DNA of 64,000 bases from Variovorax sp. WS11 (lineage in GTDB: Bacteria > Pseudomonadota > Gammaproteobacteria > Burkholderiales > Burkholderiaceae_C), in assembly GCF_010499245.1 (NCBI RefSeq), contig NZ_JAAGOW010000001.1, positions 2,914,001 through 2,978,000 on the forward strand. The letters run 5' to 3'. This document shows positions 25,309-43,232 of the stretch, one piece after another. A model generated the notes under the pieces. That model was not told the DNA's origin. It was given only the letters and a program-made list of their open reading frames with translations, and made no database searches. Each line of letters opens with the position of its first letter. Positions within the stretch are counted from its first letter, which is position 1. Made by a program: the position numbers and the translations under genes.

Positions 25309-27030
25309 TCAGGATTCGTCGCGCAGCCAGGTGACTGCGCCCGAATGGGTCACGGCGCCCTGGTGGCTGGGGCGCACGGTGAGCGCGTATTTTTCCAGCA
25401 AGCCTGTATGCCGCACCCCCGCGTTTACCTGACGTTGCGCGAGCCGCGCAGCGATTTCCTGATCGCTCAGCTCGACGGAGATGCTGCGGATTTCTGCCCG
25501 CGCGTCGATGGCGACGATGTCGCCGTCGCGCAGCGCCGCGATCGGTCCGCTGTCGGCCGCCTCGGGCCCCGCGTAGCCGATGCACAGGCCGCGCGTCGCG
25601 CCCGAGAAACGGCCGTCCGTCAGCAAAGCCACCTTGTCGCCCATGCCTTGGCCGTAGAGCAGGGCGGTGATGCCCAGCATCTCGCGCATGCCGGGGCTGC
25701 CCTTGGGCCCTTCGTTGCGGATGACGATCACGTCGCCGGCCTGGTAGCGGCGGTTCTGCACGGCGGTCTGCGCTTCTTCCTCGGACTCGAAGACGCGCGC
25801 CGGTCCGCGATGCACCAGCGTCTTCAGGCCCGCGGTCTTGAGCAGGGCTCCGTCGGGGCACAGGTTGCCCTTGAGCACCGCGAGGCCGCCGTCGCGCGTG
25901 ATGGGATCGCCCGCCTTGCGCACCACGCGGCCGTCCGGCGCGGGCGCATCGGCCACTTCCTCGGCCAGCGTGCGGCCGGTGAAGGTGAGCACGTTGCCAT
26001 GCAGGTAGCCCTGCTCCAGCAGCGTGCGCAGGATCACGCCGGCGCCGCCGATGTAGTACACGTCGCGCGCCAGGTACTGCCCGCCCGGGCGCAGATCGGC
26101 GATGAGCGGCGTGCGCGCGAACACCTCGGCCACGTCGTCGAGGTGGAACTTGATGCCCGCCTCATGCGCGATCGCCGGCAGGTGCAGCGCCGCATTGGTC
26201 GAGCCGCCGGTGGCCGAGACCAGCGCGCAGGCGTTCTCCAGCGCCTGGCGCGTCACGATGTCGCGCGGCAGCGGGCCTTCGCCCATGACGGCCTTCATCA
26301 GCTGCTTCGCGGCGCGGCGCATCAGCGGCGCGCGTTCGCTGAACACGGCCGGCACCATGCTGGAGCCGATCGGCGCCAGGCCCAGCGCCTCCGACACCAT
26401 GCCCATGGTGTTGGCGGTGAACTGGCCTGCGCAGGCGCCGGCGGTGGGCAGGCAGGCGCGGCTCATGGCGTCGAGTTCCTCGTGCGTGGCGTCGCCGGCC
26501 AGCACCTTGCCGATGGTCTCGTAGGTATCGACCACGTTGAGGTCGTGGCCATCCGGCCCCGGCATCTGGCCGGGCAGCGCCGAACCGCCATGCACGAACA
26601 CGCTGGGCACGTTGCAGCGGACCATGCCCATCATCAGGCCCGGCAGGTTCTTGTCGCAGGCGCCGATGGCGAAGATGCCGTCCCACTGGTGGCCGCGCGT
26701 CGAGGCTTCCACGCTGTCGGCAATCAGCTCGCGCGAGATCAGCGAGAAGCGCATGCCCGAATGCGCCATCGTCAGGCCGTCGCTCACCGACACCACCGGG
26801 CATTCGTGCGGGGTGCCGCCGCCTGCGTAGATGCCGGTCTTGGCATGCTGCGCCTGCTCGCGCAGGTTGAGGTTGCACGGGCTCATCTCGCCGCCGGTGT
26901 GGAACACGCCGATGTGCGGGCGGGCGATGTCCTCGTCGTCCTGGCCCAGCGCATGCAGGAAGCTGCGCGTGGTGGCGCGGATGGTGCCCTCGCGGATGAT
27001 CGCGGAGCGGAAGCGCTTGGGGTCGCTCAT
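25309..27030 (-). CDS. IlvD/Edd-family dehydratase
   Basis: A 573-residue iron-sulfur dehydratase. Three Cys are placed for a cluster: Cys52 (MSPCNLN), Cys125 (GACDKNLPG) and Cys200 ([14 protein letters not shown]). [19 protein letters not shown] is the family active-site region. It removes water from 2,3-dihydroxy acids; whether the substrate is dihydroxyisovalerate or a sugar acid such as xylonate or arabinonate cannot be read. A catabolic role is likely because it sits in a catabolic operon beside an aldolase and a binding protein, 10 bp after hpaI. The start at 27030 gives [20 protein letters not shown]; an ATG 24 codons upstream lies in hpaI. Confidence 0.87.
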
Positions 27031-27040
27031 GGCGAGGGGC

Positions 27041-27850
27041 CTAGTAAGTGCCGCCGGCGGACGCCGGCTTCGCTCCGCCCTTGAAGCGCGCGGCCAGCGC
27101 ATTGGTGCTGCGCACCAGCAGGTTGGTGTCGAGCCCGACGGCGACGAAGAGGGCGCCCAGTTCCAGGTACTTCTGCGCCAGCGTCTCGTCCGGCGTCAGG
27201 ATGCCGGTGGCCTTGCCGGCACGCTGGATGCGCGCAATCGCGTCCTCGATGGCGGCCTGCACCTCGGCGTGGTTCGAGTCGCCGACATGGCCGAGCGAAG
27301 CCGACAGGTCGGCCGGGCCGATGAAGACGCCGTCGACCCCGTCGACGCCTGCGATCGCGTCCAGGTTCGCCAGCGCTTCGCGCGACTCGGCCTGCACCAG
27401 CAGGCAGACCTGTGAGTTGGCCTCCCTGGCATAGCCCGGGTAGCGGCCCCAGCGCGAGGCGCGCGCGCCGCCCATGCCGCGGATGCCCTGCGGCGGATAG
27501 CGCATGGCACGCACGATGGCCTGCGCCTGCTCGGGCGTGTCGACCATCGGCACCAGCAGGGTCTGCACGCCCAGGTCGAGGTACTGCTTGATCAGCGCCG
27601 TGCCCACGTCGCCGTGTCCCACCGGCACGCGCGCGATGGCGTTCACGCCCGGATAGGCCGCGATCGCCTGCGCCTGCTGCAGCACGCTGCGCAGGCCGTT
27701 GGGCGAATGCTCGCCGTCGATGAGCAGCCAGTCGAAGCCGGCGCCGGCGCAGATCTCCGCGCTGTAGGCGTCGGCCAGGCCGAGCCACAGGCCGATCTGC
27801 GCGCGCTTCTCGGCCAGGGCTTGCTTGAAGGGATTCGTGGGGGTTTGCAT
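27041..27850 (-). CDS. hpaI: 4-Hydroxy-2-oxoheptanedioate aldolase
   Basis: A 269-residue class II (metal-dependent) pyruvate aldolase of the HpcH/HpaI family that splits 4-hydroxy-2-oxoheptanedioate into pyruvate and succinate semialdehyde. The conserved catalytic residues fall at His48 (DGEHSPNG), Arg74 (NAIARVPVG), Glu155 (VQAESREAL) and Asp181 ([10 protein letters not shown]), matching the E. coli enzyme's H45, R70, E149 and D175. It is the last dedicated step of the meta-cleavage route. The start is [10 protein letters not shown] at 27850, 11 bp after hpaH. Confidence 0.95.
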
Positions 27851-27861
27851 GGGGTTCTTCT

Positions 27862-28665
27862 TCAGACGAAACGGAAAGCGACGGCGCCGAGCGGGCCGTA
27901 GTCCGCATGGAAGGTGTCGCCGGGCTTGGCATTGGTGGGCCGGGTGAAGGACCCGCCGAGCACCACCTCGCCGGCCTCCAGGCATTCGCCCCAGGGCGCG
28001 AGCTTGTTGGCCAGCCAGGCCACGCCGGTGGCCGGATGGTTGAGCACGGCCGCGGCCAGGCCCGACTCCTCGATCACGCCGTTCTTGTAGAGCAGGGCGC
28101 CGACCCAGCGCAGGTCCACCGCGTCGGGCTTGACCGGCCGCCCGCCGGTCACGATGCCGGCATTGGCCGCGTTGTCGGCGATCGTGTCGAAGACCTTGCG
28201 CATCGCGCCGGTCTCGCGGTCGAACTGCTCGATGCGCGCGTCGATGATCTCGATGGCCGGCACCACGTAGTCGGTGGCCGCGAGCACATCGAAGATGCTC
28301 ACGTTCGGGCCCTGCAGCCGCTTGCCCAGGACGAAGGCGAGCTCGACCTCGATGCGCGGCGCGATGAAGCGGGTGAAGGGAATGTCGCCGCCCTGCTCGA
28401 AGAACATGTCGTCCAGCAGCGTGCCGTAGTCCGGCTCGGTGATCTGGCTGGCCTGCTGCATGGCGCGCGAGGTGAGACCGATCTTGTGGCCACGGACCAC
28501 GCGGCCCTCGGTCAGCTTGGCCTTCACCCACTCGCGCGAGATGGCGTAGCCGTCCTCGATGCTCATCTCGGGAAAGCGCTTGGAGAAATGCTCGACCTGC
28601 ACGCGCGACCTCTCGCTTTCGTGCAGTTCCGCGGCGAGCTGCTGGATGACGTTCCTGGCGAGCAT
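27862..28665 (-). CDS. hpaH: 2-Oxo-hept-4-ene-1,7-dioate hydratase
   Basis: A 267-residue hydratase of the FAH/MhpD superfamily, the same length as E. coli HpaH. It adds water to 2-oxohept-4-ene-1,7-dioate. The middle section [19 protein letters not shown] contains the metal-binding glutamates of the family, and [16 protein letters not shown] is a typical N-terminal block. It starts 6 bp after hpaF and precedes hpaI by 11 bp, the order found in hpa clusters. Confidence 0.93.
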
Positions 28666-28671
28666 GCTTTT

Positions 28672-29076
28672 CTACTTGTTGAAGAGAGGATGCAGGTTGC
28701 CGTACTTGCCGTCGTAGACCTGGTCGGGCGCTTCGTCGATCTGCAGCGTGGTCCCGATGTGCCGCTGCGCGACCAGCGGCTCGAAATGCTGCTTCACCTT
28801 GGCGAGCAATGCATCGCCGATGCGCTTCTTGACCGCCTCCGTACGTCCCGACGCCATGCGCACGTTGAGATAGACGAAGGCGTAGTCGCCCTTGCCGTCG
28901 GCCACGGCATAGTGCGCGGCCGGGAAGGCCAGCACGCGCGTGCCGCCGGTCGGAAAGACCTGCCGGCCCTCGTCGTCGCGCTGTTCGAGCATGGCGTCGG
29001 CCATCGTGCGGCAGAGCGCCGTCATGTCGGTCTGCAGCTCGATGTTGGGGGTGTAGAGAATCACGAGATGCGGCAT
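28672..29076 (-). CDS. hpaF: 5-Carboxymethyl-2-hydroxymuconate delta-isomerase
   Basis: A 134-residue tautomerase-like protein of the CHMI family. The mature N-terminal Pro2 ([13 protein letters not shown]) is the expected catalytic proline. It converts the enol/keto forms of 5-carboxymethyl-2-hydroxymuconate after ring cleavage and oxidation. Slightly longer than the ~126-residue E. coli protein. It begins 13 bp after the hpaD stop and ends 6 bp before hpaH. Confidence 0.92.
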
Positions 29077-29089
29077 CGTTGTCTGCTCC

Positions 29090-29965
29090 TCAGGCTATGG
29101 CCGGCGCCGGCAGCGGCGTGACCGGAAAGATGGCATTGATCTGCCCCGTGCCCGAACTGCCGAAGTACGGCGTGACGATCTCCACCGGCGCCGTGTAGCG
29201 GTCCCACCCCAGCAGGCCCAGCAGCATCGCGGTGTCGTGCATGTCGCCTTCGCCCCAGCACTTGTCGGCATACATCGGCAGCATGCCGACGAAGGTCTTC
29301 CATTCGCCGGCCTCCCAGAGCTGGACCACGCGGCGGTCGACCTGCTCGAGGAAGGGATCGTAGACCTTGTGCATGAACTCGGGGGCGCGGCCGTTGTCGG
29401 CGAAATGATGCGACAGCGAGCCGCTCGCGAACACCGCGACCGTGCCCTCGTAGCGCTCCTCGATGGCGCGGCGCACCGCCAGGCCGAAGCGGCCCGATTC
29501 GGTGAGGTCATGCCAGTCGCACCAGCCGCTGATGCTGATCACCTTGTAGTGCTGATCGGCGTTCATGTAGCGCATCGGCACCAGCGTGCCGTACTCCAGC
29601 TCCAGCGTGGTGTCGCTGTGGGCGCGGCTCTTCACGCCCATCTCGTTGGCCACGTCGGCGATCAGATGACCCAGCGCCGGGTTGCCTGGATAGGCAAAGG
29701 GCATGTTCTTGATGAAGTGCGGCAGTTCGTTGCTGGTGTAGGTACCCTCGAACTTCGGGCCGCAGTTGATGTGGTATTCGCTGTTGACCTGCCAGTGCAC
29801 GTCGAAGACCACGATGGTGTCGACGCCCAGCTCCCGGCAGCGCCGGTCGATTTCCTTGTGGCCGTTGATCGCCGCCTCGCGGCAGCCGAAGTTCGGGCCG
29901 GGGAACTCCGACAGGTACATCGAGGGAACGTGCGTGATCTTGGCGGCGAGTGCGAGCGTGCCCAT
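29090..29965 (-). CDS. hpaD: 3,4-Dihydroxyphenylacetate 2,3-dioxygenase
   Basis: A 291-residue extradiol dioxygenase of the LigB superfamily, opening the ring of homoprotocatechuate next to its hydroxyls using Fe(II). The beginning MGTLALAAKITHVPSMYLSE and segments CREAAINGHKEIDRRCRE and ASGSLSHHFADNGRAPE follow the E. coli HpaD pattern closely; the His residues in KITHVP and DVHWQ are candidate iron ligands. Start at 29965, two bases after the hpaE stop. The key ring-cleavage enzyme of the cluster. Confidence 0.95.
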   Translation of the reverse strand: MGTLALAAKITHVPSMYLSEFPGPNFGCREAAINGHKEIDRRCRELGVDTIVVFDVHWQVNSEYHINCGPKFEGTYTSNELPHFIKNMPFAYPGNPALGHLIADVANEMGVKSRAHSDTTLELEYGTLVPMRYMNADQHYKVISISGWCDWHDLTESGRFGLAVRRAIEERYEGTVAVFASGSLSHHFADNGRAPEFMHKVYDPFLEQVDRRVVQLWEAGEWKTFVGMLPMYADKCWGEGDMHDTAMLLGLLGWDRYTAPVEIVTPYFGSSGTGQINAIFPVTPLPAPAIA

Positions 29966-29967
29966 GA

Positions 29968-31425
29968 TCAGACTCCCCAATGCGGGATGTGATGCGAACC
30001 CAGCGACACCGCCACGTTCTTCGGCTCGCAGAAGACCTCGTAGCTCCAGGTGCCGCCCTCGCGGCCCGTGCCCGAGGCCTTGGTGCCGCCGAAGGGCTGG
30101 CGCAGGTCGCGCACGTTCTGGCTGTTGACGAAGCACATGCCGGCCTCGACGGCGGCCGCCACGCGGTGCGCACGGCCGATGTTCTCGGTCCAGACGTAGC
30201 TGGAGAGGCCGTACTGGATGTCGTTGGCCAGGCGGATGGCATCGGCCTCGTCCTTGAAGGGGATCAGGCAGGCGACGGGCCCGAAGATCTCGTCCTGCGC
30301 GATCTTCATGCGGTTGTCGACATCGGCGAAGACCGTGGGCGCGACGTAGTTGCCGCGCCGCACGCGCTCCGGCAGCGGCGGCACTTCGAGCCCGCCGCAC
30401 AGCAGGGTCGCGCCTTCCTTCGGCCCCAGCTCGATGTAGCTGCGCACCTTGGCCAGGTGGGCCTGCGAGATCATCGGCCCCACGATGGTCGCTTCATGAA
30501 GCGGGTCGCCGACCACGATGCGCTTGGCGCGCTCGGCGAACTTCGCCGCGAAGTCGGCGTAGATCGACTGCTGCACCAGGATGCGCGAGCCCGCGGTGCA
30601 GCGCTCGCCGTTGTTGCTGAAGATCATGAACACGGCCGCGTCGAGCGCACGGTCCAGGTCCGCGTCCTCGAAGATCACGAAGGGGCTCTTGCCGCCCAGC
30701 TCCATGCTGAACTTCTTCAGGCCCGCGCTCTTGACGATGCGGTTGCCGGTGGCGGTGGAGCCGGTGAAGGAGATCGCGCGCACGTCCGGGTGCGCGACCA
30801 GCGGCTCGCCGGCCTCCTTGCCGTAGCCATGCACCAGGTTCAGCACGCCCGGCGGAATGCCGGCCTCCAGCGCCAGCTCGCCCAGGCGCGCGGCGGTCAG
30901 CGGCGACAGCTCGCTCATCTTGAGCACCGCCGTGTTGCCGAAGGCCAGGCAGGGCGCGACCTTCCAGGTGGCGGTCATGAAGGGCACGTTCCACGGCGAG
31001 ATCAGCGCGCACACGCCGACCGGGTGGAACAGCGTGTAGTTGAGGTGCGTCTCCGTCGGGTAGGTGTGGCCGTCCACCCGCGTGCACATCTCGGCGAAGT
31101 AATAGAAGTTGTCGGCCGCGCGCGGCACCAGCTGCTTGCCGGTCTGGGCGATGACCTGGCCGCAGTCGTTGGTCTCGGTCTGAGCCAGCTCGGGCACGTG
31201 GGCCGCGATCAGGTCGCCGAGCTTGCGGATCAGCTTCGCGCGCTGGGGGGCGGGCAGGCCCGCCCATTTCGGGAAGGCCGCCTTGGCGGCGGCGACCGCG
31301 GCGTTGACTTCCGCCTCGCCGCCGGAGGCGACCTCGGCCAGCACTTCCTGCGTGGCGGGGTTGACGGTCTCGAAGTAGTCGGCGCCGGCGACCGGTTTGC
31401 CGTCGATGAGGTGATCGATCTTCAT
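29968..31425 (-). CDS. hpaE: 5-Carboxymethyl-2-hydroxymuconate semialdehyde dehydrogenase
   Basis: A 485-residue aldehyde dehydrogenase that oxidises the product of ring cleavage with NAD. The catalytic set is Asn145 (SPWNVPFM), Glu242 (MELGGKSP) and Cys276 (NNGERCTAGS). Family identity rests on gene context and size (E. coli HpaE 488 aa). It is followed closely by hpaD (2 bp) and preceded by a Bug gene (7 bp). Confidence 0.95.
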   Translation of the reverse strand: MKIDHLIDGKPVAGADYFETVNPATQEVLAEVASGGEAEVNAAVAAAKAAFPKWAGLPAPQRAKLIRKLGDLIAAHVPELAQTETNDCGQVIAQTGKQLVPRAADNFYYFAEMCTRVDGHTYPTETHLNYTLFHPVGVCALISPWNVPFMTATWKVAPCLAFGNTAVLKMSELSPLTAARLGELALEAGIPPGVLNLVHGYGKEAGEPLVAHPDVRAISFTGSTATGNRIVKSAGLKKFSMELGGKSPFVIFEDADLDRALDAAVFMIFSNNGERCTAGSRILVQQSIYADFAAKFAERAKRIVVGDPLHEATIVGPMISQAHLAKVRSYIELGPKEGATLLCGGLEVPPLPERVRRGNYVAPTVFADVDNRMKIAQDEIFGPVACLIPFKDEADAIRLANDIQYGLSSYVWTENIGRAHRVAAAVEAGMCFVNSQNVRDLRQPFGGTKASGTGREGGTWSYEVFCEPKNVAVSLGSHHIPHWGV

Positions 31426-31432
31426 GGGGCTT

Positions 31433-32410
31433 TCAATCCAGTTTGATGTCGCGCGCCTTGATGAGGGCGTGCCACTTCTTGCGTTCCGCTTCGGTGTAGC
31501 GGTTCATCTCGGCGGCGTCGGCGGGCGTGGGGTCCCAGCCGGCATCCTGCAGCTTCTGCCGCACGCCGGGGTCGTTCATGGTCTTCATCAGGTCCGCGCC
31601 GAGGCGGGCCTGCACGTCCTTGGGCGTGGCGGCCGGCGCCACCAGGCCTTGCCAGGCGTAGGCCTCGACGGCAGGGAAGCCGAGCTCCTTCGCGGTCACG
31701 ACGTTCGGCAGCTGCGGCATGCGTTCGCCGGACATCGCGATCAGCGGGATGGCCTTGCCGGCCTTGACGGCGCTGACGCCGCTGGGAAGGTCGAGCACCA
31801 TCAGCGGCACCTGGCCGCCCATCAGGTCCTGCAGGGCCGGCGCGCCGCCCTTGTAGGGCACGTGCAGCACCGACACGCCCGCCTCGCGCTGGAACAGCTC
31901 GAGCGCCAGGTGATGCGGGCTGCCGAGGCCGGGCGTGGCGACGCTGTACTTGCCGGGCGAGCGCTTGAGCTCGGCCAGCAGCGCCTTCGCGTCGGTGATG
32001 CCGGCATTGGGAGCGGCCGTGATGATGAGCGAGGAGCGGCCCATCATGCCGAGCAAGGCGAAGTCCTTCTCGGCGTCGTAGGGCAGCTTCTTGTAGAGCG
32101 CCGGGTTGTAGACCAGCACGCCGTTGTCGGCCGAGAAGACGGTGTAGCCGTCGCCCGGCGAGCGGGCCACGTGCTCTGAGGCGATGATGGCCGCCGCGCC
32201 GGGACGGTTGTCGATGACCACGGGCTGGCCCAGCTGCTGCGAGAGCTGCGCGCCGGCCGTGCGCGCAAGAAAGTCGGTGCCGCCGCCGGCCGGATACCCG
32301 ACCACCCAGCGCACCTGCTTGTTCGGGTAGGGCTGCGCGGGCGCATCGAAAGCGAAGAGCGAAGCGGCCAGCGCGAGCAGCGCCGCGGCGAAACGGGAAA
32401 TCCGGGTCAT
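31433..32410 (-). CDS. Bug/TctC-family solute-binding protein inside the hpa operon
   Basis: A 325-residue receptor: signal peptide ending DAPAQ, then NKQVRWVVGYPAGGGTDFLAR and VVIDNRPGAAAIIAS, typical of Bug proteins. It is set between hpaG2 (53 bp upstream) and hpaE (7 bp downstream), so it is clearly part of the aromatic-acid operon. This suggests, without proving, that it presents 4-hydroxyphenylacetate, homoprotocatechuate or a related acid to an importer. No TctAB genes are in the window. Confidence 0.9.
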   Translation of the reverse strand: MTRISRFAAALLALAASLFAFDAPAQPYPNKQVRWVVGYPAGGGTDFLARTAGAQLSQQLGQPVVIDNRPGAAAIIASEHVARSPGDGYTVFSADNGVLVYNPALYKKLPYDAEKDFALLGMMGRSSLIITAAPNAGITDAKALLAELKRSPGKYSVATPGLGSPHHLALELFQREAGVSVLHVPYKGGAPALQDLMGGQVPLMVLDLPSGVSAVKAGKAIPLIAMSGERMPQLPNVVTAKELGFPAVEAYAWQGLVAPAATPKDVQARLGADLMKTMNDPGVRQKLQDAGWDPTPADAAEMNRYTEAERKKWHALIKARDIKLD

Positions 32411-32463
32411 AGCTTGTCTCCTAGTTGTGTTGTGGCGGGCAGGCGCTGCGCGGTCACGCCTTC

Positions 32464-33216
32464 TCAGGCCGCAGCGATGGTGTTGGTCAGCGCGCCGATG
32501 CCTTCGATCTCCGTCACCACCACGTCGCCGGGGCGGCAGTCGACCACGCCGTCGGGCGTGCCGGTGAGGATCAGGTCGCCGGGCGCGAGCGTCATGAAGC
32601 CTGAGAAGTACTCGACGAGGAAAGGCACGTCGAAGATCATGTCCTTCGTGTTGCCCGACTGCGTGAGCTTCCCGTTGACGGTGGTCTGCAGCGCGAGCGC
32701 CATCGGGTCGGGCACGTCCTCCGCGTCCACCAGCCAGGGCCCGATGGGCGTGCAGGTGTCGCGGTTCTTCACCCGCAGGTTGGGGCGGTACCAGTTCTCG
32801 AGGTAGTCGCGGATCGCGTAGTCGTTGGCCACCGTGTAGCCGGCGATGAAGTCGTAGGCATCGCCCCGCCGCACGTTCCGCGCCGTTTTGCCGACCACGA
32901 CCACCAGCTCGCATTCGTAGTGCATGAAGGACACGCCGTCCGGGCGCCGCGTCTTCTGGCGATGGCCGATGAGCGTGCTCTGGCCTTTGACGAAAACCAG
33001 CGGCTCCTCGGGCGCCTTGAATTCCAGCTCCTTCGCGTGGTCGGCGTAGTTGAGGCCGAGCGCGAGGATGGTGCGCGGGCGCGGCGTGGGCGCCAGCGGC
33101 GGCAGCCAGAGGGCGTCGTCGAAGGCGATGCTGCGGCCGTCGGCCAGCAGCAGCCGGCCGTCGCGCTCGGTGGCCGCCTGCTCCACGCCTTCGAAGGCGA
33201 TGCGTGCGTGCTTCAT
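32464..33216 (-). CDS. hpaG2: HpaG C-terminal-type subunit (FAA hydrolase fold isomerase/decarboxylase)
   Basis: A 250-residue protein of the FAA hydrolase family. GLNYADHAKELEFKAPEEP and FMHYECELVVVVGKTARN carry the divalent-metal glutamates and aspartate of the fold, and LTGTPDGVVDCRPGD is the terminal loop. In E. coli, HpaG is a fusion of two such domains with isomerase and decarboxylase activity on the ring-cleavage product. Here the halves are separate genes, this being the C-terminal half-like protein. The start overlaps the hpaG1 stop (ATGA). Confidence 0.9.
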   Translation of the reverse strand: MKHARIAFEGVEQAATERDGRLLLADGRSIAFDDALWLPPLAPTPRPRTILALGLNYADHAKELEFKAPEEPLVFVKGQSTLIGHRQKTRRPDGVSFMHYECELVVVVGKTARNVRRGDAYDFIAGYTVANDYAIRDYLENWYRPNLRVKNRDTCTPIGPWLVDAEDVPDPMALALQTTVNGKLTQSGNTKDMIFDVPFLVEYFSGFMTLAPGDLILTGTPDGVVDCRPGDVVVTEIEGIGALTNTIAAA

Positions 33217-33836
33217 GCGGCTTCTCCCACCAGCGTGTTGGCCAGCGTCTCGAAGCCCGGCGCACTGATCTCGATGCGGTCGCCGGGCCGCGCCAGCGGG
33301 CGGCCGGCATCGCAACCCAGCATCAGCACGTCGCCGTGCGCCAGCGTCATGAACTCGCTCACGTCGGCCAGCAGCTGCGAGGCGTTGCGCACCAGTTGCG
33401 AGAAGTCGATCGACTGGCGCTGCGCGCCGTTGATGCGCAGCTCGAGTTTGAACTCCGCCGGGTCGGCCACCTCCTGCGCATCACGCATCGCGGGGCCGAT
33501 GCCGAGGAAGCCGTCCACGCACTTGAACTTGACCGGCGGGCGGAAGAAGCTCGCGTGCGGGATCGAGAGGTCGTTCATCGGCACGAAGCCTTCGACGTCG
33601 CCGTCGGCACCGATCACCATCGCGATGGTGGCGCCGACCTCGACTTCGGGCACGCGTGCGGGCACCACGATCGCGCTGCCGTGCGGGCTCCAGGTGTTGG
33701 CCGTCTTCACGTACAGCACCGGCGCCTTTGGCGGTGCCTTGTAGGGGGGCTGCGTCATCTGCGGCGCCAGCGCCTCGACTTCCGCGCGGAAGTTGAGCAG
33801 CACGCCGTAGACGGTGCCGGTGGGGAGGAAGCTCAT
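33213..33836 (-). CDS. hpaG1: HpaG N-terminal-type subunit (FAA hydrolase fold)
   Basis: A 207-residue FAA-hydrolase-fold protein that begins MSFLPTGTVYGVLLNFRAE and contains YVKTANTWSPHGSAIVVPAR, the block of the HpaG N-terminal half. It probably partners with the next gene to form the isomerase/decarboxylase. Its start overlaps the hpaR stop (ATGA), so the three first genes of the operon are coupled. Confidence 0.88.
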   Translation of the reverse strand: MSFLPTGTVYGVLLNFRAEVEALAPQMTQPPYKAPPKAPVLYVKTANTWSPHGSAIVVPARVPEVEVGATIAMVIGADGDVEGFVPMNDLSIPHASFFRPPVKFKCVDGFLGIGPAMRDAQEVADPAEFKLELRINGAQRQSIDFSQLVRNASQLLADVSEFMTLAHGDVLMLGCDAGRPLARPGDRIEISAPGFETLANTLVGEAA

Positions 33837-34264
33837 GGTTGTTCCAGTTCGATCACTTGGTCGAGCAGCACATAGAGCTGCGACAGCTTCTGCTTGCCCA
33901 GCGACTTCTCCATCCAGGCGTAGTGCGCCTCGATGCTTTGCGAGAGCTGCTGGACCATGCGCGTGCCCTTGGGCGTGGCCTCGACCACCGTGCGGCGCTG
34001 GTCGGCGGGATCGCGCGCGCGGCGGATCAGGCCGTCGCGCTCCATGCGCGCGAGCACGCCGGTCAGGCTGGGTCCGAGGATGAAGGCCTCGCGCGCGACG
34101 CGGCCGGTCTCGACCATGCCGTGCTCGCCCAGCACCCGCAGCACGCGCCATTGCTGGTCGCTCAACCCATGCTCGCGCAGGCTGGGCCGGGTGTGCGCCA
34201 TGACGGCTTCGCGCGCCTGCAGCAGCAGGCGGGGCAGGTTGCGGTGGACGAAGGGGGTGCTCAT
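33833..34264 (-). CDS. hpaR: Homoprotocatechuate operon repressor, MarR family
   Basis: A 143-residue MarR-type winged-helix protein: LSDQQWRVLRVLGEHGMVE is helix 2-3, REAFILGPSLTGVLARMERD the recognition helix, GLIRRARDPADQRRTVVEAT the wing. It matches HpaR/HpcR in size and context, being the first gene of the operon and preceding hpaG1. A 12-bp palindrome lies 15 bp upstream of its start codon. Repression relieved by 4-hydroxyphenylacetate-type acids is known for HpaR; here it is inferred from homology. Confidence 0.92.
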   Translation of the reverse strand: MSTPFVHRNLPRLLLQAREAVMAHTRPSLREHGLSDQQWRVLRVLGEHGMVETGRVAREAFILGPSLTGVLARMERDGLIRRARDPADQRRTVVEATPKGTRMVQQLSQSIEAHYAWMEKSLGKQKLSQLYVLLDQVIELEQP

Positions 34265-35842: not shown

Positions 35843-36322
35843 ATGAATTTCGGCAAAGTCTTCGTGCCTCTCGCAGGCCTGCTGCTGCTCGGCCTGGCCT
35901 ACCGCGCCTACAGTTGGCCCGGCGTCGCCTTCGCGGGCGGTGCCATCGTCATGTTCCTGCTGATGCACTTCAACCGCACCATGCAGGTCCTGAAGCGCGC
36001 GGCCGACCGGCCCATCGGCACGGTGGCGAGCGCGGTGATGCTCAATGCCAAGTTGAAGCCCAAGGTGACCCTGCTGCACGTGATCGCGATGACGCGCGCG
36101 CTCGGCGAGCAGCGCACGCCGAAGGACGCGCAGCCCGAGATCTATCGCTGGACCGACAACGGCGGTTCGTGGGTCGATGCCACCTTCGTCAACGGCAAGC
36201 TGACGGAATGGACGCTGGTGCGGCCCCAGGCGCCCGACGAGGACGCAGTGCAAGCGGCCGATGCGCCGAGCGCCGATGCGGTGAAGCCCGGGGCCGCGGA
36301 TGCGCTGCGGCCGCCGATGTAG
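35843..36322 (+). CDS. Conserved small membrane protein of unknown function
   Basis: A 159-residue protein with two N-terminal membrane helices (VFVPLAGLLLLGLAYRAYSW and VAFAGGAIVMFLLMHF) and a soluble tail. The core NRTMQVLKRAADRPIGTVASA is distinctive and occurs in a family of Burkholderiales proteins sometimes mislabelled as glycerate kinase, to which it bears no resemblance. The C-terminal ~30 residues are Ala/Asp/Pro-rich. The start is the ATG at 35843 (MNFGKVFVPL); the ATG at 35834 would add MRP. It meets the next gene convergently. Confidence 0.65.
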   Translation: MNFGKVFVPLAGLLLLGLAYRAYSWPGVAFAGGAIVMFLLMHFNRTMQVLKRAADRPIGTVASAVMLNAKLKPKVTLLHVIAMTRALGEQRTPKDAQPEIYRWTDNGGSWVDATFVNGKLTEWTLVRPQAPDEDAVQAADAPSADAVKPGAADALRPPM

Positions 36323-36325
36323 CGG

Positions 36326-37189
36326 CTAGCCCGCCCGCTCGGCTTCGACTCGGTTGCGCAGGACACCGATCCCCGCGACCTCGACCTCGACCACATCGCC
36401 AACCTGCATGAAGAGTGGAGGGGTGCGGGCCATTCCGACGCCACCGGGTGTCCCGGTCACGATGACGTCGCCGGGTGCAAGCGGAAGAATCGTGGAGCAA
36501 TACGCGATCAGCTCGGGGATGTCGAAGATCAACAAGCTGGTGTCGGACTGCTGGACCACCGTCCCGTTCAGCCGGGTGGTGAGCGTCAGGGGGCGGCGGC
36601 TTGGGTCGAGCTCGTCGGCGGATGTCATCCACGGCCCGAACGCACCCGAGGCGGCGAAGTTCTTGCCGGGAGTCCATTGGGTCGTATGGAACTGCCAGTC
36701 TCGCATCGAGCCGTCGTTGTAGCAGCTATAGCCGGCGATATGCCGCCATGCATCGGCCGGCGAGATGCGGCGCCCTCCATGGCCGATGATGACGGCGACC
36801 TCACCCTCGAAGTCGAAACGGGTCGACTCGGGCGGCAGCAGCAGGGGCTGTTCGTGTCCGACCTGGGATTCGGGATACCGCAGGAACACGGTCGGATGCG
36901 CCGCCTTGCGGATCTTCGTTTCCTCCAAGTGATCGGCGTAGTTCACCCCGATGCAGAAGATCTTGCCGGGGTTCGGGATCACCGGTCGATGGACAAGCTG
37001 GTCCAGCGCAATCGAGGGGTCGGTTGTGGCGAGGCAACGCCGTGCCTCCTCCAGCCCACCATCGGCGGTCAGGAGGGCCCGGAGGTCGGCAAAACGCTGC
37101 CCCAGGCGTGCCCCGAGATCGACCACGGCGTCGTCGACAACCGCGCCAAACGTGGGTTGACCGTCGATGAAAAAAGATCCCAACTTCAT
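36326..37189 (-). CDS. Fumarylacetoacetate hydrolase-family protein
   Basis: A 287-residue FAA-hydrolase enzyme. CIGVNYADHLEETKIRKA, FDFEGEVAVIIGHGGRRISP and VTGTPGGVGMAR are the family's metal and loop motifs, with the Glu-Glu pair in FEGEVAV as ligand. It lies last in the five-gene unit 41227-36326 and is more like ureidoglycolate lyase/acylpyruvate hydrolase-type members than the hpaG proteins in length. The substrate is unknown. Context (two Bug proteins, enolase-superfamily and TauD-type enzymes) suggests breakdown of an unusual acid. Confidence 0.85.
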   Translation of the reverse strand: MKLGSFFIDGQPTFGAVVDDAVVDLGARLGQRFADLRALLTADGGLEEARRCLATTDPSIALDQLVHRPVIPNPGKIFCIGVNYADHLEETKIRKAAHPTVFLRYPESQVGHEQPLLLPPESTRFDFEGEVAVIIGHGGRRISPADAWRHIAGYSCYNDGSMRDWQFHTTQWTPGKNFAASGAFGPWMTSADELDPSRRPLTLTTRLNGTVVQQSDTSLLIFDIPELIAYCSTILPLAPGDVIVTGTPGGVGMARTPPLFMQVGDVVEVEVAGIGVLRNRVEAERAG

Positions 37190-37199
37190 TCAATTCCTC

Positions 37200-38180
37200 C
37201 TATTGGACGGGCTTGTACTTGATCGTCTTGCCCACGCGCTCCCAGCGTGCCGAGTCTTCCGCCATATAGCGCGCGAAGGGCTCGGCGCCGAGCGGCATCA
37301 GCACCGAACCCTGCTGGATCAGTGCCTCCTGCACGGCTGGGATGCGCATCACCTTCAGCGCAGCTTCCGACAGCTTTGCGAGTACTGGCGCGGGCGTGCC
37401 TGCGGGTGCCAGCAGTCCGTTCCAGAAGCCGATGTGGAAGTCGGCGACGCCGGCCTGTGCCATGGTTGGAATGGCTTCCAGCGCCGGGAGCCGCTCGCGT
37501 GAGGTGACGGCCAGCACCTTCAATCGTTTGGTGTTGGCGTATGGCATCAGCGGCACCGGATTGCTGAACATCAACTGGACCCGGCCGGCGCTGAGGTCGG
37601 TGAGCGCGGGGCCGCCGCCTTGGTACGGGACCTCCTGCCAGTCCAGGCCCAGCTTGGTTTTCATCAGTTCGGTCACCAGGTTCTGCGGCGAGCCAGGGCC
37701 GGTCGATGCGTAGTTGAGCTTGCCGGGATTTGCCTTGCTATAAGCCACCAGCTCGGCGACCGACGCGACCGGGAGCGAATCCGCCACCGCCAGCGCTACG
37801 GGCGACTCGGTCAGCAGGGCCACCGGCGCGAAGTCCTTGGGTTTGAAGGGCGTCGACGGTTCGATTGCCGGTCGCAGCGTCGCATTGCCGGTGTCGAGCA
37901 GCAGCGTGTAGCCGTCGGGCGCGGCCCGTGCCGCGGCGACGGTGCCGATCACGCCGGCAGCGCCCGGCTTGTTCAGCACGACGAAGGACTGGCCCAGGGC
38001 CTTGCTCAATTCGGCCGAGATGATGCGCGCCAGGGTGTCGGTGCCACCACCAGCCGGGTAGGCAACGATCACCTGCACAGTCCGGCTCGGATAGTCGGTC
38101 TGCGCCTGCGCCGCCGAGCCCAGCAGCAGCAGGCCGAGGGCCGCAAGGTGCCGGCACCAGCCGGCTCGAAAGCGTTTCAT
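37200..38180 (-). CDS. Bug/TctC-family solute-binding protein
   Basis: A 326-residue receptor with signal peptide ending SAAQAQ, the Bug hallmark RTVQVIVAYPAGGGTDTLARI, and FVVLNKPGAAGVIGT. Placed 10 bp before the FAA hydrolase and 27 bp after a second Bug gene. Two receptors in one short operon suggest two related ligands or a duplicated receptor; their sequences differ enough to be distinct. Confidence 0.9.
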   Translation of the reverse strand: MKRFRAGWCRHLAALGLLLLGSAAQAQTDYPSRTVQVIVAYPAGGGTDTLARIISAELSKALGQSFVVLNKPGAAGVIGTVAAARAAPDGYTLLLDTGNATLRPAIEPSTPFKPKDFAPVALLTESPVALAVADSLPVASVAELVAYSKANPGKLNYASTGPGSPQNLVTELMKTKLGLDWQEVPYQGGGPALTDLSAGRVQLMFSNPVPLMPYANTKRLKVLAVTSRERLPALEAIPTMAQAGVADFHIGFWNGLLAPAGTPAPVLAKLSEAALKVMRIPAVQEALIQQGSVLMPLGAEPFARYMAEDSARWERVGKTIKYKPVQ

Positions 38181-38207
38181 CGGGTTGCCTCCTGGTCTTG
38201 CGCCGCG

Positions 38208-39197
38208 TTATTCCGCGCTGACGCCGAGTTTTTGCACGACATTGGCCCACTTTGCCACTTCGCTTTTCACGAAGCCCGCGAAGTACGACGCGCTCGTATC
38301 GGGCGAAGGTTCGAGATACATCGCTTCCAGCTTTTCCCGGATCTGCGGCTTGCCGAGCGCGTGGCCGAGATGGCTGCTGAGCTTCTGCACGACCGGAGCT
38401 GGCGTGCCGGCGGGCGCGAACACGCCGAACCACCCCGTTTCCTCCACAGAGGGATAGCCGAGCTCGACCACGGTCGGCACCTGTGGAAAGAAGCGACTAC
38501 GCTCGCGCGAGGTGACCGCCAGCGCCTTGAGCTGTCCTGACTTGAGGAAGGGCACCGCTGCGCCGGGCGTCACGAACATCATCGAGACCTGCCCGCCGAT
38601 CAAGTCCGTGATGGCCGGTGCGCTGCCCCGGTAAGGAACGTGCTGCATCGGTATGCCGGCCGTTTTGGCCAATGCGAAGCCGGCGATGTGCTGCGGCAGG
38701 CCGACGCCGGGAGATGCATAGGTCAACTGCGCGCCGGCCCTGCCCTTCGCCAGGAGTTCGTCGAGCGTCTTGATTCCGCTCTTGGCGGACACGACCAGCA
38801 GGTCCGGTGCCGTGCCGATCAGGGCCACCGGGACGAAGTCGCCGAGCGGGTCGTAGGGACGAGGCTTGATGAGCGCGGGCACGATGGCGTTGGTCGCCAC
38901 CTGTCCCATGAGCAGTGTGTGACCGTCGGGTGCCGCGCCCGCGACCACCTTGGTGCCGATGATGCCGCCCGCACCCGCTCGGTTGTCCACCACCACGCTT
39001 TGCCCCAGGTTCTGCGACAGCTCGGAGGCAGCGATGCGGGCGATGGCGTCGGTGCCGCCGGCCGGCGGGCCTGCCACGACCATCACCACCGGCTTGACGG
39101 GATAGTCGCCGGGCGGCTGCGCGCCCGCGCATGACGCCGAGAGTGCCAGCAGCCCCGAGAGCGCAGGCAGAAGGTACGTCCTGTACAGATATCTCAT
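38208..39197 (-). CDS. Bug/TctC-family solute-binding protein
   Basis: A 329-residue receptor, start MRYLYRTYLLPALSGLLALS at 39197 with AAGGAAAA before it. Signal peptide ends near CAGAQ. The Bug hallmark is VKPVVMVVAGPPAGGTDAIAR with VVVDNRAGAGGII. It lies 27 bp before the other Bug gene and 43 bp after the enolase-superfamily gene in the same unit. Confidence 0.9.
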   Translation of the reverse strand: MRYLYRTYLLPALSGLLALSASCAGAQPPGDYPVKPVVMVVAGPPAGGTDAIARIAASELSQNLGQSVVVDNRAGAGGIIGTKVVAGAAPDGHTLLMGQVATNAIVPALIKPRPYDPLGDFVPVALIGTAPDLLVVSAKSGIKTLDELLAKGRAGAQLTYASPGVGLPQHIAGFALAKTAGIPMQHVPYRGSAPAITDLIGGQVSMMFVTPGAAVPFLKSGQLKALAVTSRERSRFFPQVPTVVELGYPSVEETGWFGVFAPAGTPAPVVQKLSSHLGHALGKPQIREKLEAMYLEPSPDTSASYFAGFVKSEVAKWANVVQKLGVSAE

Positions 39198-39240
39198 ATG
39201 TTTTCCTTGAGGCGGTCTCTGCCGCGCGTTCGAATGTCGT

Positions 39241-40338
39241 TCAGGCCCGCAGCGTCTGCTTGCCGAACGTCGCCTTCCGCAGCGTGCAGCGCTCGACCAG
39301 ATCGGTGTCGAGCCGAGGCCTGTACCCGGCTGGAATGCGGATTGCACCGTTCGAGAACGGCAACGGATTCTCGAAAACGCGCTCTCGCGTCTTGAGGAAG
39401 CCATTCATTTCGCCAGCGTTGTCGATGGCGTGCGCGGCGACGCAGGCTTCCGCCCAGCAGCCGATCTCGAGCGACACGCCATCGCCCAGCACCGGGGTAA
39501 GGCCATTGGCGCGGATGCGTTCAAGGCCTTCGATCAGCATGTCCACGCTGCCCATCTTCTTGAGCTTCAGCTTGACGAAACCGACGCCATCCATCGCGCC
39601 GGCGCGGTCGATGTCGCCCAGGTCGTAGATCGATTCATCCAGCATCACCGGCACCGCCGAGCGAACGGCAACCGCGGCGTTGGCGCGCCAGTCGTCCAGC
39701 GGGCAGGGCTGTTCAAACAGTTCGATGCCCTGCGGTGCGAGGCGGCTGGCGAAGGCGATGCCATCGACCGAATCGAAGCCCTGGTTTGCATCGAGCCGCA
39801 GCGTGGCGCGGTCCCCGACAAGACCCTGGATGCGACCGACATGGTCCAGGTCGCGCTGCCAGTCGAAGCCGACCTTCACCTTGAGCGTGCGGAAGCCCTG
39901 CGCGAGCGTCCGCTCGATTTCCTCGGCAAGTGCCGCGGGCTCGGAGGATTGCACCGGGGCGAGCAGGGGGACTGCCACGGCCGCACGTGTCGCCAGGAGC
40001 GGGTGGCCGGTCAGCATGTCCAGTGCGGCCAGCATCGCGCTGGCGGCACCTACCCCGTCATGCACATGGCTTCGGGCGACAGCCTTGGCCGCTTCTGCAT
40101 CCATGCCCACCACGCGCGAGCCCAGGATTTCACACAGCCGCCATGAGCCCTCGACCGTCTCCGTCGTGTAGCCGGGAATGATCAGGGCCTCTCCAAAGCC
40201 GTGTTCGCCATCGGTGCCGCGAACTTCGATGACGAAGGGATCGAAGCGCTCGATCTTCGCCAGCGAGACTTCGTAGGGGACTCGAAGCGGCAGGTCGACC
40301 TGCCGCGCGCTCACCTGTTCGATCTGCACGCGCTGCAT
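39241..40338 (-). CDS. Enolase-superfamily enzyme, muconate lactonizing type
   Basis: A 365-residue MR/MLE-type enzyme. The acid/base Lys pair is in KVKVGF (Lys153/155) with a second Lys at 256/258 (FVKLKLKK). Metal ligands are Asp183 (RLDANQGF), Glu209 (LFEQP) and Asp234 (LDES). This Lys-x-Lys/Lys arrangement belongs to the muconate-lactonizing subgroup, which includes cycloisomerases, dipeptide epimerases and racemases; the substrate is not evident. Start uncertain: M at 40338 avoids overlap with the preceding gene; 40356 would add six residues. It follows the TauD-type dioxygenase directly. Confidence 0.82.
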   Translation of the reverse strand: MQRVQIEQVSARQVDLPLRVPYEVSLAKIERFDPFVIEVRGTDGEHGFGEALIIPGYTTETVEGSWRLCEILGSRVVGMDAEAAKAVARSHVHDGVGAASAMLAALDMLTGHPLLATRAAVAVPLLAPVQSSEPAALAEEIERTLAQGFRTLKVKVGFDWQRDLDHVGRIQGLVGDRATLRLDANQGFDSVDGIAFASRLAPQGIELFEQPCPLDDWRANAAVAVRSAVPVMLDESIYDLGDIDRAGAMDGVGFVKLKLKKMGSVDMLIEGLERIRANGLTPVLGDGVSLEIGCWAEACVAAHAIDNAGEMNGFLKTRERVFENPLPFSNGAIRIPAGYRPRLDTDLVERCTLRKATFGKQTLRA

Positions 40339-40342
40339 CCTT

Positions 40343-41227
40343 TCAGCGCACAGCATCGCCGGCGATCTGGGTCCGGTACATCAGCCGGCGCGCGCCCGGA
40401 TCGAAGGAGTCCCGCCGATGCATCGTGCAGCTGTTGTCCCACATCATGACGTCGCCGACCTTCCAGACCTGGGTCCAGGTCAGCTCGGGGCGAGTTGCGT
40501 GGGCCCAGAGCTGGTCCAGCAGCGCCTCGCTTTCCTCGAGGTCCAAGCCGGCGATGTAGGCATTGCGGCGCCGTCCCAGCAGAAGGCAGGCCCGGCCGGT
40601 CACGGCATGCACGGACACGAGCGGATGCGTCGCACCCACGGTCTGGCGCGGATCGGTGTTGTCCGAAAAGCCCAGCCGCAGTTCGCCGGCGCTGTTGCGG
40701 CTTGCGTCGTGAACGCAACGCAGGTCGCGAATGCGCGACTGAAGCGTGGGATCGAGCGTTTCGTAGGCTCGGTACATGTTCGAAAAATGCGTGTCGCCGC
40801 CGGCCGGCGGCACTTCGACCGCATACAGGCAGGCGCCCTTGGGCGGGCGCTCGTTGTAGGTCATGTCCGCATGCCATACGGCCTCGCCGTCACCGAGTGC
40901 GCCCAGCGGCTTGCCCCCGACCTTCACGTTGGAGATGACCGTGATGGCGGGGGGCAGCGCGTCGTGCTCGACGCTCATCTTGCCGCTGGCGGTCGGGCGC
41001 TTGTCGAGCGTGCCGAAGTGCCTCGAGAACGCCACAAGGTTCTCCAGCGTGAGGCGCTTCTGGTTGCGAAAGCGCAGCACCAGGTGATCGGCCCATGCGG
41101 CCTTGATGGCATCGACCTGCGCGGGCGCAAGCGCCTCGTTCAGGTCGATCGAGCCGATATCTGCGCCCAGTGCCGCCCCACTGGGACTCACCGTTGGTGC
41201 GTGCGTGACCTCGATCGCGCTGCTCAT
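40343..41227 (-). CDS. TauD/TfdA-family 2-oxoglutarate-dependent dioxygenase
   Basis: A 294-residue Fe(II)/2-oxoglutarate oxygenase. The ligand triad is His119 and Asp121 (VWHADMTYNERP) and His270 (DNSCTMHRRD), with Arg281 for 2-oxoglutarate (GARRLMYRTQ). Relatives hydroxylate taurine, phenoxyacetates and other substrates, often freeing a leaving group. It is the first gene of the five-gene unit, transcribed away from the LysR-type gene. The start at 41227 is favoured by GGAAAAAACC; an upstream ATG would add 21 residues. Confidence 0.88.
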   Translation of the reverse strand: MSSAIEVTHAPTVSPSGAALGADIGSIDLNEALAPAQVDAIKAAWADHLVLRFRNQKRLTLENLVAFSRHFGTLDKRPTASGKMSVEHDALPPAITVISNVKVGGKPLGALGDGEAVWHADMTYNERPPKGACLYAVEVPPAGGDTHFSNMYRAYETLDPTLQSRIRDLRCVHDASRNSAGELRLGFSDNTDPRQTVGATHPLVSVHAVTGRACLLLGRRRNAYIAGLDLEESEALLDQLWAHATRPELTWTQVWKVGDVMMWDNSCTMHRRDSFDPGARRLMYRTQIAGDAVR

Positions 41228-41321
41228 GGTTTTTTCCTCTGTCGACTGAATGGATGACCGAAACATATCGGCAAGGCATTTATCAGACAATTTCTATTTT
41301 TAAATGTATTTATCCATCTGA

Positions 41322-42242
41322 ATGATCAACGTTTCCCTGCGACAGATCGAGGTCTTCCTGGCCGTCTCCGCGACGCTGAGCTTCAGCCAAGCGGCTCGGC
41401 TGTGCCACCTCTCCCAGCCTGCCCTTAGCGCGAATGTGAAGCGCTTGGAGGAGGTGCTGGGTGCGCGCCTGTTCGACAGGCACACGCGCAAGGTGTCGTT
41501 GACCGCTGTGGGTGTGGAGTTTCTGAAGGCAGCATCCTCCGTGTCGGAGAACATCGAGGCCGCCCTGGCGCGGGTACAGGACTTCGTGTCCGGCAAGCGC
41601 GGCCGCCTTGTCGTGGCCGCTGCGCCCTCCATGGCGGCGACCTTCGCCCCGCGCGTGATGGCCAGGGTGGCTGCTGACCATCCCGAGCTCGATCTTGAGC
41701 TCCACGACGAACTCTCGGACCTCAGCGTCGACCTCGTTCGCCAAGGCACGGCCGACGTCGCGCTGGCGCCGGCCATGGATGACGCGTCGGACCTGACGCA
41801 GAAGCAACTGTTCCGCGACTACCTGGGCGTTGTCTGTCGGGCCGACCATCCGTTGGCGCGCCTGAAGACAGTGCAATGGCGCGATGTGCGGCCATACCCG
41901 CACATTGTCATGAACCGCAGCAGCAGCGTACGGCAGCTCGTCGACCAGCAGTTCGCACGCAACGGCGTCGGTCTGCGCCCCGCCTTCGAGGTCGCGCATG
42001 TCGGAACGATGCTGGGCCTGATCTCGGCCGATCTGGGCATCGGGGAACTGCCGGAGTCGTTCCTGCAGAACATCGACATGACGGGCCTGGTGTATCGCAG
42101 GATTGGGAGCAAAGCGACGTACCGCACGATCTGCGCCATTACCTCAAGGACGCGAAGCCCGTCACCGCTGCTCGCCGCCTTCCTCGAACATTGCGAGCAA
42201 GTTGCCAAGGAGGTCCTGCTCGAGCGTGGCAAGGCCTCGTAG
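41322..42242 (+). CDS. LysR-type transcriptional regulator
   Basis: A 306-residue LTTR: the N-terminal winged helix (FLAVSATLSFSQAARLCHLSQ, then ALSANVKRLEEVLGARLF) and a C-terminal ligand domain (LVVAAAPSMAATFAPRVMARV and following). It is divergent from the TauD-type operon with a 94-bp AT-rich gap, the normal LysR arrangement, so it probably controls that operon. The inducer is unknown. rdgC follows convergently after 9 bp. Confidence 0.92.
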   Translation: MINVSLRQIEVFLAVSATLSFSQAARLCHLSQPALSANVKRLEEVLGARLFDRHTRKVSLTAVGVEFLKAASSVSENIEAALARVQDFVSGKRGRLVVAAAPSMAATFAPRVMARVAADHPELDLELHDELSDLSVDLVRQGTADVALAPAMDDASDLTQKQLFRDYLGVVCRADHPLARLKTVQWRDVRPYPHIVMNRSSSVRQLVDQQFARNGVGLRPAFEVAHVGTMLGLISADLGIGELPESFLQNIDMTGLVYRRIGSKATYRTICAITSRTRSPSPLLAAFLEHCEQVAKEVLLERGKAS

Positions 42243-42251
42243 CGCGCGAGT

Positions 42252-43232
42252 TCAGAACGGCGCGGTCTCGTCCACCAGCTCAGGCGGCGCAGACGCGTCG
42301 CTCGGTGCCGAGGGCTCGGCCGGGGCCGCGCCCAGCTGCATCTCGCCGCCCAAGGCCTCGATCAGCTCCGGCACCAGCTGCCCGAGCTCGCCGGTCGCGA
42401 TCGCGGCATCTGCGTCGAAGTTGTCTTCCTTGGCCGAGCCCGGCGCGTCGTCGAGCGTGCCTTCGAGGAACACGATCTTGCGCAACTGCATGCCTTCGGT
42501 CAGTTCGAAGGACACGCGGTCGTCCCAGGTCATCGCCAGGCGGGTGGGGCGCTTGCCGTCGGCGATGTGCTGACGCACCTCCTCGATGTCCAGCGGGTGC
42601 TTGGCATAGCGCACCACGGCCTTCGACTCGTCGGTGGCCTTGAGCTCGCATTCGCGGTCGATGGTGAAGCCCGCCGGCGGCTCCTGCGTCGACAGCCAGT
42701 CCGACATGGCGACGGCCGGCTCCACCTGGGTATTGATCTGCGCTACCGCGAAGCCTTCCAGCGCCTTCACCAGGCTGGTCACGACCTCGTCGGCGCGCGC
42801 CGCATTGCTGGCGTTCACCACCAGCCGCCGCGCGGCCGGATCGATCCAGACCGCGATGCGCACATGGCGCGTGAAGGCCAGCGGCAGTAGCTCCTGCGTG
42901 ATGTCTTCCTTGAGCTCCTTCTTTTCCTTCTTGCCCGGCTTGCGGCCGGTGGTGGCCTCGATCTGCGCGGCGCGCTCCTCGACCTTGCGGCGCACCACCG
43001 AGCCGGGCAGGGTCTTGCTCTCGATCATGTATTCGAGCAGCCACTGGCCGCCGACGGATTCGACCAGCGGCCCATGGTCCTCGCCGCGGGGCTCGGCCCA
43101 GCCGGCGGCCTTCTCCTGCGAGGGGCTGCAGGGCACGAAGCGAAAGGCATCCAGGCGCTGCTCGACGTCGGTGAGCGTTTGCGACCAAGTGGATTCGATG
43201 CGATAGACGATGACGTTCTTGAAGACGGACAC
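42252..43232 (-). CDS. rdgC: Recombination-associated protein RdgC
   Basis: A 326-residue RdgC, a ring-shaped DNA-binding protein that restrains RecA. The start VFKNVIVYRIESTW is typical, and SWLTGEPP-like positions appear here as DWLSTQEPPAGFTIDRECEL. The C-terminal region ends in an acidic, Pro/Ala-rich tail. The start is the GTG at 43232, since the usual N-terminus begins there, with AAGGG in front. Divergent from ilvE. Confidence 0.93.
   Translation of the reverse strand: MSVFKNVIVYRIESTWSQTLTDVEQRLDAFRFVPCSPSQEKAAGWAEPRGEDHGPLVESVGGQWLLEYMIESKTLPGSVVRRKVEERAAQIEATTGRKPGKKEKKELKEDITQELLPLAFTRHVRIAVWIDPAARRLVVNASNAARADEVVTSLVKALEGFAVAQINTQVEPAVAMSDWLSTQEPPAGFTIDRECELKATDESKAVVRYAKHPLDIEEVRQHIADGKRPTRLAMTWDDRVSFELTEGMQLRKIVFLEGTLDDAPGSAKEDNFDADAAIATGELGQLVPELIEALGGEMQLGAAPAEPSAPSDASAPPELVDETAPF

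Follow-up and report, generated by a model that had tools for sequence, protein, structure and literature searches.

A conserved gene cassette around an enolase-superfamily enzyme outside curated families in Variovorax sp. WS11

We analyzed a 64,000-nt stretch of the genome of Variovorax sp. WS11, referred to below as the window (positions 2914001–2978000 of contig NZ_JAAGOW010000001.1, in a genome of 8.49 Mb), in which five minus-strand genes and a divergent regulatory gene form a cassette around an enzyme of the enolase superfamily. Read in the direction of transcription, the five genes encode a TauD/TfdA-type Fe(II)/2-oxoglutarate dioxygenase (hereafter TauD; 294 aa from MSSAIE; 40343–41227), an enolase-superfamily enzyme of the muconate-lactonizing enzyme (MLE) subgroup (hereafter MLE; 371 aa; 39241–40356), two Bug/TctC-type periplasmic binding proteins, Bug2 (329 aa from MRYLYR; 38208–39197) and Bug1 (326 aa; 37200–38180), and an FAA-hydrolase-family protein (FAH; 287 aa; 36326–37189), which is the optional last gene of the cassette. 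A LysR-type regulator of 306 aa is encoded on the plus strand (41322–42242) and diverges from TauD over 94 bp. All six genes are present without internal stops, and each product scores above the Pfam gathering score of its family: 205.5 bits for TauD, 107 bits for the MLE (MR_MLE_C), 76 and 157 bits for the DNA-binding (HTH_1) and substrate (LysR_substrate) domains of LysR, 218.2 and 239.1 bits for Bug1 and Bug2 (TctC, PF03401; gathering score 27) and 216.2 bits for FAH (FAA_hydrolase, PF01557; gathering score 23.9). The starts of TauD (41227) and Bug2 (39197) were set by a codon-based gene caller; the scanned open reading frames reached 41290 and 39404, and the score of Bug2 is that of the longer frame. 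Spacers measure 10 bp between FAH and Bug1, 27 bp between Bug1 and Bug2 and 43 bp between Bug2 and MLE, and MLE overlaps TauD by 14 bp (a 4-bp gap instead if MLE begins at its second ATG). An earlier note on this DNA had described a five-gene unit with gaps of 4–43 bp next to a LysR gene, and both the sequence and the Pfam assignments bear this out; the five genes are likely one transcription unit under the LysR gene. The earlier note had also proposed a search for the same gene order elsewhere. This order does recur in other genera, so the arrangement is more than chance.

The cassette is real, conserved and patchily distributed, and its central enzyme belongs to an enolase-superfamily family outside the curated ones. 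Six peptide patterns taken from the window MLE served to collect 63 loci, so that the conservation of stretches such as KVKVGFDW and IDNAGEMN is partly built in. Genes were predicted with a codon-based caller that missed some of them (the TauD of L018 was seen by tblastn), and trees were built with FastTree, without tests of alternatives. TauD was counted within 5 kb of MLE, any of GlmS, GlmL and GlmE (GlmSLE) within 8.5 kb and SauS over the whole stretch; many contigs end before these limits are reached. Sixteen of the 63 loci group with the window and L086 in a clade, clade I, with a support of 1.0 and the marker LGDG. The other 47 comprise all loci outside clade I (L057 lies outside both tree groups, and L063, L064 and L068 are not in the tree) and carry LGNG where this stretch was aligned. 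In 11 of the 16 clade I loci, MLE comes immediately after TauD (L008–L012, L014, L015, L017, L018, L020 and L024), and a divergent LysR gene precedes TauD in 10 of these 11, broken in L008; L024 has another LysR gene, on the same strand. MLE is followed by Bug2 and Bug1 in 10 of the 16 (L008, L010–L012, L014–L018 and L020). FAH was found in six, after Bug1 in L010, L016, L017, L018 and L020 and directly after MLE in L024; its identity to the window protein is 71–73% in L010 and L016 and 34–46% in the other four. Five loci with the order LysR-TauD-MLE-Bug-Bug have no FAH beside the cassette (L008, L011, L012, L014 and L015). The conserved core consists of LysR, TauD, MLE and the two Bugs, and FAH lies outside it. 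The earlier note had read the genes as a three-step pathway that oxidizes, isomerizes and splits its substrate. The association of TauD, MLE and Bug on which it built is conserved; the splitting step cannot belong to a common pathway, because FAH is absent or divergent across loci. Two peculiarities were seen among these loci: the MLE of Alcaligenaceae strain CAII-53 (L018:9001–10083) has one in-frame stop, and in Roseomonas a gene for an NtaA/DmoA-family FMN monooxygenase, over its cut-off, follows TauD-MLE-FAH (L024:8412–9728).

Residues and fold place the window MLE in the MLE subgroup. K159, K161, D189, E215, D240 and K264 are invariant across 28 aligned sequences (window included), and the enzyme shares the KxK motif, the D/E/D metal ligands, the second catalytic lysine and the fold with muconate cycloisomerase, dipeptide epimerase and OSBS/NSAR. 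Its AlphaFold model (pLDDT 93.9) is best matched in Foldseek by the L-Ala-D/L-Glu epimerase 1jpm (E = 6.6e-27). In contrast to these known enzymes, however, it shows only 18–30% identity to its best 50 structural matches, the top ones being L-Ala-D/L-Glu epimerase and muconate-lactonizing-type enzymes, and it has motifs of its own (GYxxE and GEMNG). Dipeptide epimerases carry an amine-binding DxD motif after the eighth strand; E316-M317-N318 of the window MLE aligns with D321-F-D323 of 1jpm, giving ExN in place of DxD. The MLE matches 12 NCBIfam families (E ≤ 0.001) and scores under the cut-off of each. The best is the muconate/chloromuconate cycloisomerase TIGR02534 (97.3 bits against a cut-off of 334.95), and the methylaspartate ammonia-lyase model TIGR01502 is not among the 12. 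The window MLE is therefore a member of the MLE subgroup that belongs to none of the curated families tested. The label of a muconate-lactonizing-type enolase-superfamily enzyme, given to it earlier, holds at the level of the subgroup and fails for muconate cycloisomerase by the curated cut-off.

TauD belongs to its superfamily by domain and by the HxD...H iron triad. H119, D121, H270, R281 and R285 were located in the alignment; we take the first three to be the iron ligands and assume for the two C-terminal arginines the roles that they have in TauD, and all five positions are the same in RdpA and TauD. The enzyme differs from these dioxygenases in that it falls under the cut-off of taurine dioxygenase NF007104 (152.2 bits against 313) and clusters with other MLE-linked TauDs, apart from six TauD paralogues of its own genome and from 6d1o (support 0.98). 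FAH has the FAA domain of HpaG/HpcE and of the diketo-deoxyrhamnonate hydrolase; its difference from these is that it is optional and that all seven of its NCBIfam matches are below the cut-off, including 2,4-didehydro-3-deoxy-L-rhamnonate hydrolase NF053535 (159.6 bits against 500) and the HpaG C-terminal domain TIGR02303 (148.5 against 276.4). Its residues H87, E90, E128, E130, D159 and K176 were located and are presumably catalytic. Between LysR and TauD (41228–41321), an alignment of eight clade I regions, window included, has 14 invariant columns, and a GGATAAATACAT...GATAAAT block, complete in part of these regions, is a putative LysR operator.

These similarities raise an aromatic or muconate-type alternative, in which TauD would cleave an aryloxy acid and the MLE would cycloisomerize a substituted muconate or lactone. 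TfdA and RdpA cleave aryloxy acids, the best PDB sequence match of TauD is 6d1o, an (R)-phenoxypropionate/2-oxoglutarate dioxygenase (E = 1e-42), and among NCBIfam models the MLE matches TIGR02534 best. The distance to the TIGR02534 cut-off is large, however, and the cassette contains no ring-cleaving dioxygenase, which makes this route very unlikely and places it behind both racemization and a sulfonate substrate, in that order, among the three alternatives considered here.

The gene content, its order, conservation and distribution, and the catalytic residues in place lead us, with somewhat less than even confidence, to read the cassette as a catabolic unit for one imported acid, which TauD would activate, from which the MLE would take the alpha-proton and which FAH would finish where present. 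The presence of TauD before MLE in 11 of the 16 clade I loci, where no GlmS, GlmL or GlmE was seen in the stretches examined, supports the pairing of TauD with MLE. In the proposed scheme, the Bug proteins would capture an imported organic anion and LysR would turn the operon on; TauD would then oxygenate a carbon of the acid and so activate it. The MLE would take the proton alpha to the carboxylate, with the enolate stabilized on its metal, and would then either expel a beta-substituent, be it the OH just introduced or a group loosened by TauD, or re-protonate the enolate. FAH, where present, may hydrolyze or decarboxylate the resulting keto acid. We infer a sequential action of TauD and MLE, with elimination preferred over racemization. 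The claim that no described pathway has this set of genes agrees with our search of the open-access literature, in which no description was found by titles and abstract beginnings (subscription papers lie mostly outside its scope). A testable enzyme pair, TauD and MLE, thereby replaces five loose annotations.

We then considered 399 genomes drawn evenly from the window's order, a sample not seeded by MLE peptide patterns. The MLE family was present in 11 of them, the window's own included, and the other 10 carry it in 11 places. At all five LGDG places TauD was adjacent or within ~1 kb (one, L119, is the genome of L020 again). Among the six LGNG places, four have GlmSLE, L125 has the order MLE-Bug-Qor-TauD and L123 (the genome of L028 again) has SauS. 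TauD is also a neighbor of MLE outside clade I, in L026, L032, L059 and L069, at three positions of the tree (L026/L032, L059 and L069) and without GlmS, GlmL or GlmE in the stretches examined. The 15 searched genomes with TauD near MLE, many of which are metagenome-assembled genomes (MAGs), gave no GlmE match, and this holds for the genomes of these four loci and for the window's genome; the sole positive of the 24 genomes in that search, G271 (L028), has no TauD near MLE.

Outside clade I, GlmS, GlmL and/or GlmE lie within 8.5 kb of MLE in 30 of the 47 loci, and all three in 22. Of 398 genomes sampled from the phylum, only 5 gave a GlmE match, 3 of them above the cut-off, and this difference supports an activating-partner role for these genes. 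In L022, GlmS, GlmL and GlmE pass the curated cut-offs and the models call GlmE methylaspartate mutase, yet the residues of canonical glutamate mutase (R66, R100, R149 and E171) are not all kept near non-clade-I MLEs. There, R149L and E171L occur in 24 of 24 aligned copies, in which Y177 is kept, and R66 and R100 are kept in all 23 copies that reach them. The GlmE of L107 and L108 has the same leucines at 149 and 171, and the variant motifs PAIMLTGT and YLGS occur in four further loci (L120, L121, L126 and L127). All five copies of the phylum sample, by comparison, keep all four residues, although one of these, L113, is a weak match (127 bits) with only ~1.5 kb of flank. As described in PMC9545868, glutamate mutase binds the glycyl part of its substrate through R66, R149 and E171, and the acrylate part through R100 and Y177. 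The variant mutase has thus kept the acrylate side and R66 but no longer has R149 or E171, the partner of the amine, so its substrate is probably not glutamate. These results suggest that the variant GlmE (L022, L023, L027, L049 and others) likely belongs to a B12 mutase that acts on a different substrate.

Methylaspartate ammonia-lyase is an enolase-superfamily lyase, and in a canonical set (L114) GlmS-GlmL-GlmE is followed by its gene. The loci outside clade I resemble this methylaspartate pathway in that a GlmSLE-type mutase lies near an enolase-superfamily enzyme. They differ from it in that the mutase lacks R149 and E171 and the MLE is not its lyase by model; the window cassette differs further in having TauD. 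Methylaspartate ammonia-lyase was over its cut-off in 1 of the 24 genomes with a GlmSLE-linked MLE, many of them MAGs of uncertain completeness (for 22 of the 24, the GlmE type was determined). A glutamate-to-mesaconate reading of the GlmSLE-linked loci, suggested by GlmSLE and by class I fumarase-type genes in L039, L048 and L049, is weakened by R149L/E171L, and we kept it as an analogy only. The MLE relatives beside the variant mutase may represent an alternative way to activate an inert acid ahead of this same enolase-type reaction, and oxygenase plus dehydratase would then be likened to mutase plus lyase as a functional analogy, apart from family membership. By extension, the MLE could define a new enolase-superfamily family paired with an acid-activating enzyme, either an O2-dependent TauD dioxygenase or a radical B12 mutase whose substrate site has changed. 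Such pairs would be an unrecognized counterpart of methylaspartate chemistry, acting on acids that lack its amino group, with an oxygenase form and a radical form of one catabolic logic; we consider this broader proposal speculative and unlikely. Knowing the reaction of either the MLE or the mutase would set the methylaspartate-mutase label right and could give access to a catabolic pathway that is new.

Some of the same loci point to organosulfonates: TauD would split sulfite off an imported sulfonate, leaving an aldehyde or acid for the other enzymes to use. A SauS-type gene for an acylating sulfoacetaldehyde dehydrogenase occurs in 12 of the 63 loci (one was tested, L049, with 774 bits against a cut-off of 600), L030 has a confirmed TauE/SafE exporter, and Xsc exceeds its cut-off in 16 of 24 GlmSLE genomes versus 7 of 143 genomes of a class sample, the two samples differing in taxonomy. 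Sulfoacetate clusters linked to a TTT transporter (sauST or sauSCD) are described in PMC12625764. All 12 SauS-type genes, however, belong to the 47 loci outside clade I, and none was seen beside the 16 clade I MLEs in the stretches examined. Xsc is widespread in the genus, where 49 of 101 genomes have it, so its presence in all three genomes with the cassette (G000, G045 and G097) says little. Given also that TauD misses the taurine dioxygenase cut-off, a sulfonate substrate appears quite unlikely. Near MLE, the SauS-type gene is accompanied by SucCD-like genes in L049 and by an AMP-forming ligase in L032 and L028.

Several observations weigh against a catabolic cassette in which TauD and MLE act on one acid. 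TauD was not seen in L013 and L019 (contigs shorter than 4 kb), L065, L070 and L086, and the contig of L016 starts inside MLE. FAH is optional. In Variovorax sp. KK3 (L008), the cassette at the same site as in the window lacks FAH and has its LysR gene (L008:7220–8026) in three pieces and two frames; this copy may be decaying. The window MLE and this KK3 copy have E at position 29, where every other aligned copy that extends so far has K or R, or H in a single case; their substrate may therefore differ. G800 has one GlmSLE-linked and one TauD-linked MLE, and its L126 stretch combines GlmSLE with a distant TauD (39%); TauD and GlmSLE are therefore not simple substitutes. TauDs with at least 48% identity to that of L032 also occur outside MLE loci in 4 of the 24 GlmSLE genomes and in G272 (L034), and at L124 three TauDs within 19 kb make a TauD near MLE less telling. 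A strict replacement of GlmSLE by TauD was rejected on the grounds of G800, L126 and the TauDs in GlmSLE genomes.

Finally, the MLE has both lysines of a racemase, K161 and K264, which makes 1,1-proton transfer no less possible than elimination. It might then act first, as a racemase or epimerase on the imported acid, and TauD would oxidize the right enantiomer. Partners would differ between genomes because MLE is only the entry step, and they do vary: TauD, GlmSLE, SDR and Bug (L053, L105 and L106) or MetK and a carboxylase (L086). The best Foldseek match, a dipeptide epimerase, points the same way, whereas the replacement of DxD by E316-M-N318 and the position of TauD before MLE in the operon do not. 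We regard this racemase-first reading as unlikely. The unit of L053, L105 and L106, from Variovorax genomes, is a separate SDR-MLE-Bug unit whose MLE is of the LGNG type or a near relative. A plasmid search (best 20 of 121 records) yielded one relative above 40% identity, on a Sulfitobacter plasmid. In L086 (14829–17098), on the Sulfitobacter plasmid NZ_CP136685.1, a methionine adenosyltransferase gene over its cut-off overlaps the start of an MLE relative by 4 bp, and carboxylase, CoA ligase and CoA lyase genes lie around it.

The cassette is bordered on the left by a conserved gene of 159 aa (35843–36322, plus strand), matched in 99 of 101 genomes of the genus, and on the right by a gene that we take to be rdgC-like (42252–43232, minus strand). 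These two genes, which lie outside the cassette, are adjacent in 6 of 6 sampled genomes without it; the gap separating their aligned stretches is 2–22 bp in five of these genomes and 814 bp in the sixth. G093 and G094, which are among the six, have a more distant MLE (44–45%) elsewhere. A close MLE (at least 68%) is present in 3 of the 101 genomes: the window's own (G000), KK3 (G045) and G097. KK3 has a second, complete copy of the cassette elsewhere in its genome (L010), and the neighbors of the G097 copy (L011) differ from those of the window. Because few genomes of the genus carry a close MLE and the flanking genes are neighbors without the cassette, it looks inserted and was probably gained horizontally. 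Apart from the cassette, the window contains at 26001–34264 a set of genes that resembles, by eye and under gene names that we presume, a homoprotocatechuate (hpa) meta-cleavage cluster; the set seems unremarkable and has Bug and FAH genes of its own.

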